NCBI GenBank assembly: GCA_035651995.1 | Contig: DASRER010000014.1 | Coordinates: 1 to 64,000, forward strand | Length of the DNA: 64,000 nucleotides | Direction: 5' to 3' | Source: Terriglobales bacterium | GTDB taxonomy: Bacteria; Acidobacteriota; Terriglobia; Terriglobales; Acidobacteriaceae | Shown: one piece after another, positions 1-58,803 of the stretch | Numbering within the stretch: the first letter of the stretch is position 1 | Layout of the letters: every line of letters begins with the position of its first letter | The notes under the pieces: generated by a model | What the model saw: the letters and a program-made list of their open reading frames with translations, nothing else | Databases searched by the model: none | What the model was told of the DNA's origin: nothing | Position numbers and translations under genes: made by a program

Positions 1-54
1 CAGAAAATGTTGGAAATGCTCCTCAATCCGGATTATCTTCGCCATCGGGTGTAG
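1..54 (+). CDS. C-terminal end of an unidentified gene (partial)
   Basis: Frame 1 is open from the first base to a TAG at 52-54 and gives 17 residues ending LNPDYLRHRV. This may be the tail of a gene that begins upstream of the window. Only 54 bases are visible, so chance is possible and no family can be named. Confidence 0.3.
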   Translation, partial: QKMLEMLLNPDYLRHRV

Positions 55-17020: not shown

Positions 17021-17490
17021 CGCAGCCGGGCCTTCGTCGCTCCCGAACATATACCCTCCCCCCTCGGTGTTGAATGGAATCAGGAGGTTAGCGGCGAAGG
17101 TCTGTTGGTGGTCTGTTGATCTAAAGGAGTTACACGCAAAGTATGTTGTCTAAAGGGGTTAGCGGCACCCGGATTGTCAAAGAACGAAGCCCGCGCGTGT
17201 GCGCGGGCCTGCTTCAAGGGTAGCAGGTTGTGGGGGAAGAATGGGAAGGCGCGAGGAAAATTTAGTGCGCCTATTTCGTGGGGGTTGCGCGGAAATCGGG
17301 GGTCCCCGGGACTTGACAGACATCTCACGCATTCGCAGGAGAGACGTCGGGCGCTACGCGAACCAAGGGCCCAGCCGAGGGCGGCTGGGCCCATCGACAT
17401 TTTTTTGACGGCACATAGCGGATAGTTGGCGCCGGGCCGGCTGCGCGATGCTGGGTCTGCGACGAAGAAACTTTCGCAGAGGAGAGCATC
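17021..17490. other. Gene-free stretch with hairpins and a diverged direct repeat
   Basis: No coding sequence is recognisable. Two imperfect copies of a phrase ending GGTTAGCGGC lie near 17084 and 17156. A perfect hairpin GCCCGCGC-GTGT-GCGCGGGC spans 17189-17208. A terminator spans 17367-17406. TTGACA occurs at 17313-17318 but has no matching -10 box. Confidence 0.5.
17367..17406 (+). terminator. Strong hairpin followed by a T-run
   Basis: GGGCCCAGCCG (17367-17377) pairs perfectly with CGGCTGGGCCC (17382-17392) over a 4-base loop. Seven T follow after a 7-base spacer, longer than usual for an intrinsic terminator. Confidence 0.65.
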
Positions 17491-56407: not shown

Positions 56408-57052
56408 TCAGGTCATGTCGTGGCGGGTGAGCATGACGTCGGTGGTCTCCGGCTGCGATTCGCCGCGGGCGCGCGGTGTGTAGGTGGTGTAGGCGGCGTC
56501 GATCTCGTCGGTGTTCTGCACCGGTGGCGGCGGTTCGATGGTCATCTCCTCGGTGTGGACGCCGAGTTGGACGCGCTTGAGGTTGGAGACCGCGGTCTGG
56601 AGGATGTAGGCGAGGACGCTGGCGCGCTTGAGGTCAACAGTTTCTGCGAGGACCGCGCGGGCGAGATCGGTGAGCGCGAGCTGGATCGCATCGGCGTCCT
56701 CGAGCGGCGGGACGGTGGCGCGAGGACGGTTCACCTGGTAGTGGAAGTAACAGAAGCGTCCTTGGCGGACGGGCGGCGAGCCGCAAGGGCGACCGTCAAT
56801 GTGGACGTAGCCGCAGCGGCGCGCGAGTGTGCGATGCCGTTTCGTAGGGCACCCCCCTCTGGTGGTAATGATTTCAGTCAGTTGCGGAGCGGGTTTCGGG
56901 CAAGTTGATGCAGGGCCGTGGGTTAGGACCGAGGTCTTAACGTGTTTGTTTTCAGTTCTGCTGATTGGAGTGCGCGGCTTAGTCGCGCTGCGCGCTCCGG
57001 CGCCGCGTCTCTTTCTTGAAGGCCGATCCCAGCGCTGACGCGCTGGGCTCAA
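56408..57052 (-). CDS. Zinc-knuckle-like hypothetical protein
   Basis: Up to 214 residues; the true start is uncertain because the first 65 or so look like translated intergenic DNA. The core has a cysteine/histidine cluster Cys80-X9-Cys90-X10-Cys101-X2-His104 (RRCGYVHIDGRPCGSPPV then RFCYFH), likely a small zinc site. A helical segment follows (DADAIQLALTDLARAVLAET, then KRASVLAYILQTAVSNLKRV) and a polar tail ending TTDVMLTRHDMT. I recall many unannotated proteins of this layout in acidobacteria, unchecked. A truncated copy of the tail lies at 58610-58803. Function unknown. Confidence 0.6.
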   Translation of the reverse strand: MSPARQRWDRPSRKRRGAGARSATKPRTPISRTENKHVKTSVLTHGPASTCPKPAPQLTEIITTRGGCPTKRHRTLARRCGYVHIDGRPCGSPPVRQGRFCYFHYQVNRPRATVPPLEDADAIQLALTDLARAVLAETVDLKRASVLAYILQTAVSNLKRVQLGVHTEEMTIEPPPPVQNTDEIDAAYTTYTPRARGESQPETTDVMLTRHDMT

Positions 57053-57609
57053 GCAAATGCCGCCCTTCGGGCTCAGTCAAGTGCGCATCATTCTGGGCCC
57101 TACTTTCAGAGTAGCAAATCGAGGTGGGGCAATGCGCAAGCGCTGGAAGTTTTTATTATGAGCGTTTGGAAGGAGTTAGACGGAAATCGGGTGACTGAGG
57201 GGCTTGACAGGATTTGCGGACAAAGCGCCCGCCGGGAGGACGCGGCTCCCGGGGTTCGCTGTTCTCTTGGAGGTGAATCCGCGTCATCCGCGTTTATCGC
57301 GGTATGCGTTCGGACAGGAAGGACGAGCCGTGCCCGCACGCCTCCTTCCGCCTGCGCTGCGCTCGACGCCGGTCGGCGTCGCGGGCACGCAGGAAATGGA
57401 CATGGCTGAGGTCCGCGGCCCCGGAGTCACGCCGGAGGGTGAAGTCCGGGGCTTCAGGCCCGGCGCCCGCGTTGAAACCACTTGGGCTTTATCCCCTTGA
57501 ATCAGGCCGGGTCACGACGGGGACTTTACCCCCGGAACACCGGCCAATGGATATTGCGATCGCCGATGTTCGATTATCCGGCCAACCACTCCAGAGTTGA
57601 GGTCGGGTT
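57053..57609. other. Gene-free stretch with phrase repeats
   Basis: No credible gene. It contains an ATCCGCGTCATCCGCG-type phrase (57277-57303), GC-rich small palindromes such as GACGCCGGTCGGCGTC (57367-57382), and TTGACA at about 57203 without a -10 box. Open frames here have poor codon character. Confidence 0.5.
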
Positions 57610-58554
57610 ATGACCTTTAAGGCTTCCCTTCTGTGCATTCTGGTTGTTTCTACGGTTATGTTGAGGGGCCTCAGGCGTGCTATCGCCGTTTCGCTGCTCT
57701 TGTTGTTCGTTGCATCAGCGGCCCACGCTCAATCGATGAGCTATTCCGGCACGTGGCAGTTCCGAAAAGTCCCGATCCCTACAACAGCGGGCGGCCTCCG
57801 GCTTGTGCTGGCTGATCTATCTCCGGATAGCGAGTACTCAATAGGAATCGAAGCGAAAGATGTTAGTCAAGGAACACTCGTGGTGGGTGCAGCTGTGGTC
57901 GATGCGTCCGGACCAATGCGCCACCTGAAGTCCATCGATAACTGGCCCTCCGGGCAAGTAGTCGTTACGGACTCAACGATCCGAATTCTCGGTAACGGAA
58001 ATGGCAACGCGCTGGTCGTGTGAGGGACCGTCCCGACGGGAACTCGCGTGACCGTCGAGAACGCGTCGGGCCAGGTGGCGGCCGTCACAGTGGGAGGCGA
58101 TAGCAGCCTGCTCCTTCACAACGGGGTGTCTGTCGCTGAGCCTGTTCGGGGCCTTGGGACAATCACACGGCAGATTCTCCACCGCACCGCGACCGCATCC
58201 TCACAAGCGCCGCAGGAGTTGGTGGCCCTGGGCACCGGTGGCTACTTTGCCACGCCCCGAGGACTGGCCTCACACATCATAACGTTCTCAAAGCCTGCAT
58301 ATCCCGGTACTATCGCTCATGTAATGTCAGCGCAGCTGAAGATCCGTATCGATGAGACTGGGCGAGTTGTCTCGCAGCAATCACTGGAGGGGGACGCGCT
58401 GGCCCTGGCCGCATGTTCTCGGTCGATTAAGAACTGGCAGTTTCGCCCGTTTGTCGCTGCGGGAGCTCCCGTGCGTGTTGACGCCCATGTCATCTTCTGG
58501 TTTGGCGCCGACGGCTCGGTTACATCTCCGATCATTACCGAGATGGCGCGGTAG
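57610..58554 (+). pseudogene. TonB C-terminal-domain protein gene with an in-frame stop
   Basis: A frame from ATG 57610 (GAGG 7 bases upstream) runs to TGA 58021-58023 and then continues in the same frame to 58554. The first part has a signal peptide (IAVSLLLLFVASAAHA) and a beta-rich domain. The second part ends in a TonB C-terminal-like domain (LKIRIDETGRVVSQQSLEGD, SIKNWQFRPFVAAGAPVRVDAHVIFWF). The join reads NGNALVV-stop-GTVPTGTRVTVEN, which looks continuous, so one base change (for example CGA to TGA) has split an intact gene of about 314 codons. A sequencing error or readthrough cannot be excluded. Base composition is less GC-rich than the neighbours. Confidence 0.7.
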
Positions 58555-58609
58555 CGCGCGCTCAAGGCTGTATTCCTTCGCAAGTTGCCAGGTCGAAAGA
58601 CCTCTTTTC

Positions 58610-58803
58610 CTCAAGCGCGTCGAGCTTGGCAGCATGCGAACGAGATGACCACCGAACCACCGTCCCTCGTCCCCGAAATTGCCGATCTCGACGCCGCCTA
58701 CAACCCTTGGACGCCGCGCGCCCGGGCCAACGCGCACGGCTCGCCGCCTGCAGGTGACAACGCCACCACCGACGTCATGCTCACCCGCCCCGACATCATC
58801 TGA
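58610..58803 (+). pseudogene. Truncated, frameshifted copy of the zinc-knuckle protein tail
   Basis: ATG 58645 opens 52 codons (MTTEPPSLVPEIADLDAAY ... TTDVMLTRPDII) that align with the tail of the protein at 56408 (MTIEPPPPVQNTDEIDAAY ... TTDVMLTRHDMT). Just upstream, another frame reads FLKRVELGSM, matching NLKRVQLG of that protein, so a frameshift separates the pieces. The zinc-knuckle part is missing. It is a relic in opposite orientation 1.6 kb from its paralogue. Confidence 0.8.

Follow-up and report, generated by a model that had tools for sequence, protein, structure and literature searches.

The zinc-knuckle gene analysed here follows an array of three repeats, and copies of the same array element occur in dozens of other places in the source genome, mostly with no zinc gene behind them. 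The gene lies in a stretch of 64,000 nt from a Terriglobales bacterium (contig DASRER010000014.1), referred to as the window. A sequence-only model built from 22 zinc-gene leaders was used to find copies of the element genome-wide; it detects 46 copies against 5 zinc genes in the source genome, 67 copies against 7 zinc genes in the Koribacter-like genome G031, and 64 matches in G006. Dozens of mostly solo elements per genome suggest an RNA- or DNA-binding system that has so far gone uncharacterised. Soils are rich in acidobacteria, whose annotation is poor. With as many as about 67 copies per genome, a fixed repeat spacing, a promoter-like block in at least one lineage and no counterpart in Rfam, the element would rank as a major part of these genomes that had not been described. 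A candidate binding protein accompanies it, so cultured members would allow the idea to be tested directly.

The zinc-knuckle gene and its family

The ORF at 56408-57052 (minus strand) contains the zinc gene proper. The gene and its damaged relative are located as follows.

56411-56854, minus strand: zinc-knuckle gene proper, with the Cys/His core, then two predicted helices, then a variable tail
about 56747-56821, minus strand: Cys-x9-Cys-x10-Cys-x2-His core
about 56582-56695, minus strand: two predicted helices of the zinc protein (residues 49-64 and 70-86, low-confidence AlphaFold model)
58609-58803, plus strand: relic of the zinc-gene tail, truncated and with a 1-nt deletion (DNA and protein alignment)

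The original prediction of an intact minus-strand gene with this core and a helical tail is confirmed, the helices being a low-confidence prediction; AlphaFold with two sequences gave poor models (mean pLDDT 54 and 42). The core, which had been expected to be conserved, is invariant in four own-genome copies (from the protein search) and in 17 family members, the latter being no independent test because most were chosen with a pattern that demanded the core. Searches of Pfam and NCBIfam with the window protein gave nothing reaching the cut-off, and a PDB search gave no match for the family.

On sequence grounds, the first ~60 codons of the ORF, taken in the original prediction for the N-terminus of the protein, are leader element and not protein; homology within the family begins only at about residue 63. 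The DNA upstream of the zinc gene recurs elsewhere in the source genome without the gene. From the leader repeats to the core, neither the window copy nor a second copy on contig C20 has an in-frame ATG, GTG or TTG. Over the first 100 codons these two copies show 7 synonymous versus 3 non-synonymous differences. Two more own-genome zinc genes (L004 1501-1785, L005 1501-1815) likewise lack an ATG where one would be expected behind the G-tract.

The proposal of a large unannotated acidobacterial family is borne out. In a class-wide search, 113 of 399 genomes had zinc-family matches, some of them distant, and the highest number per genome was 12. Some of the weaker matches represent a broader zinc subfamily. 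The matches are strongest in one family of the class, which includes a genome that we take to be Ca. Koribacter versatilis. Homologues beyond the gene and its relic are present in the source genome itself, with five full copies. Searches of phage, plasmid and viral contigs gave no clear relative.

The truncated, frameshifted tail copy in opposite orientation is real: the DNA at about 58609-58803 is 69% identical to the C-terminal third of the zinc gene (196 nt, E 3e-16) and 54% identical at the protein level, and the 1-nt deletion shifts its first codons to another frame. A local 'unstable patch' is weak as an explanation. Around 44 zinc-gene loci in 15 genomes no recurrent neighbour family was found except the zinc family itself, and the C20 gene (90.8% DNA identity to the window copy over 618 nt) has only the gene and leader in common with the window; the flanks, where signs of movement were to be looked for, differ, and similarity ends just past the stop codon. 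What the loci do share is a specific element upstream of the gene. The array and the 5' half of the gene are nearly identical in the two copies and the tails strongly different, a pattern that looks like gene conversion. A TonB_C-like ORF at 57610-58554 of the window (E 8e-4, below the cut-off) has one in-frame TGA (58021-58023) and is otherwise open over its 315 codons.

The array element and its solo copies

The regions upstream of zinc genes carry YTAASYCCTTTG.. repeats across many genera. The spacings between successive repeats, which were not imposed, peak at 29 and 40-42 nt, giving the layout R1-29-R2-40..42-R3 (in nt) followed by a G-tract, which is present in 48 of 56 upstream regions. 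The repeat unit matches 177 times on the sense strand versus 35 times on the antisense strand and 53 times in shuffles, with a motif refined on the same sequences. The element as a whole comprises a putative promoter, an early GC hairpin, three repeats at fixed spacing and a G-tract, with a boxA-like sequence in some lineages. A strict IUPAC pattern for the repeats was dropped as too narrow. The leader of the window gene consists of the following parts.

57203-57209, minus strand: TGTCAAG box, 5' end of the conserved promoter block
57111-57116, minus strand: extended -10-like promoter box TGCTAC of the leader, at a distance from TGTCAA (93 nt) like that in own-genome solo copies
56854-56939, minus strand: repeat array R2-41-R3, with R1 degenerate (model R1)
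56852-56857, minus strand: G-tract GGGGGG, end of the element

This array scores 22.4 bits (E 3.7e-6 in the window) with model R1, the leader being outside its 22 training sequences. An imperfect palindrome, TTAAGACCTCGGTCCTAA, at 56923-56940 of the window overlaps the array, and the source genome has about ten perfect palindromes TTAAGACCNNGGTCTTAA, several of them inside the element.

The window also contains a solo copy.

17054-17165, minus strand: solo array element R1-29-R2-42-R3-G-tract with no zinc gene (53.7 bits, E 6.5e-16 in the window)
17175-17318, minus strand: promoter block of the solo element, with GC hairpin
17312-17318, minus strand: TGTCAAG of the solo element
17220-17225, minus strand: TGCTAC of the solo element
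17175-17183, minus strand: boxA-like TCTTTGACA of the solo element

The geometry is shared by the solo copies. The G-tract is found 25-43 nt after R3 in 70 of 75 copies versus 3-4 of 75 control windows, and spacings of 29-30 and 40-42 nt are seen in 71 of the 75 (the search admitted only 28-30 and 39-43). The distance between TGTCAA and TGCTA is 92-95 nt in all 12 own-genome solo copies in which both boxes were found. In G000, G031 and G024, 20 of 40 copies have the boxA-like sequence ahead of R1, and it never occurs on the reverse strand; in the genus of G006, G284 and G349 it is almost absent. RNAalifold gave no consensus secondary structure over the array; for a hairpin before R3, pairing is just slightly above that of shuffled arms (0.54 vs 0.47). 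Anti-Shine-Dalgarno mimicry, with AACUCCUUU set against the 16S tail, was considered and rejected; the CUCC part is not strictly conserved. The 16S rRNA was not found in the source genome assembly. Replication-strand bias looked absent in G031, from a hand count of the matches listed and with the record assumed to start near the origin.

Co-occurrence, conservation and proposed function

With the zinc-leader model, most of the tested genomes that carry zinc genes have 14-67 elements, and most of those that lack zinc genes have none; a survey of the family gives the same contrast among at most about 30 scored candidates per genome. Across the 37 genomes G000-G036, presence of the element (among the matches listed) and of the zinc gene agrees in 33, with 17 having both, 16 neither and 4 being discordant (Fisher p 1.7e-6, uncorrected for shared ancestry). 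G014 and G036 have elements but lack a canonical zinc gene; in G032 and G034 zinc genes are present and no elements were detected. The 19 matches in G028 belong to the broader subfamily (C..H...HDP...GG, as in L274/L281), and this genome has no arrays. The family-wide co-occurrence is partly due to shared ancestry.

Our tentative proposal is the most likely reading, although we hold it to be somewhat short of an even chance: binding of the repeats by the zinc protein would control the protein's own leader and also affect the solo copies. The solo copies would be transcribed, and the zinc protein would bind their repeats as RNA or, less likely, as DNA. Repeat binding would let the protein regulate its own leader, and the protein would be titrated by the solo copies or act through them. 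The logic would be akin to that of a protein and sponge-RNA pair such as CsrA/CsrB. A wider version is doubtful: an undescribed acidobacterial global nucleic-acid system in which dozens of transcribed three-repeat elements per genome act through a multi-copy family of C3H zinc proteins whose genes are preceded by the element too; the array and G-tract might also promote recombination or gene conversion between copies.

In the main rival reading, the copies would be an old dispersed repeat, selfish or MITE-like, whose array spreads by copying or gene conversion; the zinc genes would ride along or sit at a chance element, and the protein would have no role on solo copies. This is rather unlikely in our judgement. 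Within genomes, array subfamilies reach 91-95% identity with surrounding sequence at background, similarity among copies drops sharply at either end of the array, and the conversion-like pattern of the window and C20 copies points the same way. Against this, the zinc loci have no recurrent neighbour such as a transposase, the ends of four inspected copies carry no consistent terminal inverted repeats, a MITE trait, and the fixed geometry is maintained across genera. At least one solo copy is kept at its locus between species, with apparent constraint: G349 and G284 share a locus where, of the whole intergenic region, only the promoter-like segment, repeats and G-tract are conserved. A second pair of solo copies (L263/L241) has matching flanks on both sides. 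With conserved solo loci on the one hand and within-genome subfamilies in background flanks on the other, the element seems to be both vertically conserved and dispersed.

It is improbable that the element is only a cis-regulatory leader controlling any gene that follows, the zinc genes being one target. Zinc genes do come after the element, and one G349 locus has an unrelated ORF that, judged by eye, appears to begin at the G-tract. However, the next predicted gene is on the opposite strand in 44 of the 75 solo copies and on the same strand in 31 (crude gene finder), and the end of a convergent gene is often close by; the solo copies are therefore not leaders of one gene class. A pair of RNA-repeat antitoxin and protein toxin, as known from type III toxin-antitoxin systems, is highly implausible: tandem repeats do immediately precede a small gene, but neither the PDB nor the family searches gave a match to a ToxN-like nuclease, each gene has dozens of solo repeats, and the hairpin is located before the repeats and not after them.

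Comparison with known families

The binding of repeats by the zinc protein, as we propose it, would be in keeping with the core spacing, which equals that of the DNA-binding WRC finger. The spacing of the plant WRC (GRF) C3H zinc finger is CX9CX10CX2H (PMC7380329), and the Cys/His spacing of the window protein is identical to that of WRC (PF08879), which would fit nucleic-acid binding. WRC gives weak scores in 3 of 17 zinc-family members (best E 0.034) and no Pfam match in the window protein. The zinc family differs from WRC proteins in being bacterial, in its helical C-terminal domain and in having no QLQ domain. DUF5763 (PF19067), a Pfam model that spans only 39 residues, overlaps the zinc core, with a family best E of 2.9e-4; the window protein (E 0.13) scores 12.2 bits, below the gathering score of 26.3 bits.

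CsrA/CsrB pairs a regulator protein with a sponge RNA carrying repeated sites, with the protein's own leader as a target. The likeness would lie in the proposed logic (a binding protein, its own leader targeted, separate repeat-bearing RNAs); the two systems have no sequence relation, and the zinc system has dozens of dispersed copies. Intergenic repeats of the REP/MITE type are likewise dispersed and form within-genome subfamilies, but the element differs from them in its promoter-like block, fixed direct-repeat spacing, G-tract and linked protein family. Our searches of open-access literature gave no description of the element.

At 12 loci, Rfam gave no match to the array at E<=0.5; the only matches, a tRNA and a single Acido-Lenti-1 below threshold, fell outside the array. 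Acido-Lenti-1 RNA (RF01687) is likewise acidobacterial, and its model, a 46-nt hairpin, has no match on the array. An Acido-Lenti-1-like hairpin at 57028-57073 of the window is located inside the zinc leader on the opposite strand (32.9 bits, below the gathering score of 37), and one other locus scores 37.3 bits against the same gathering score.
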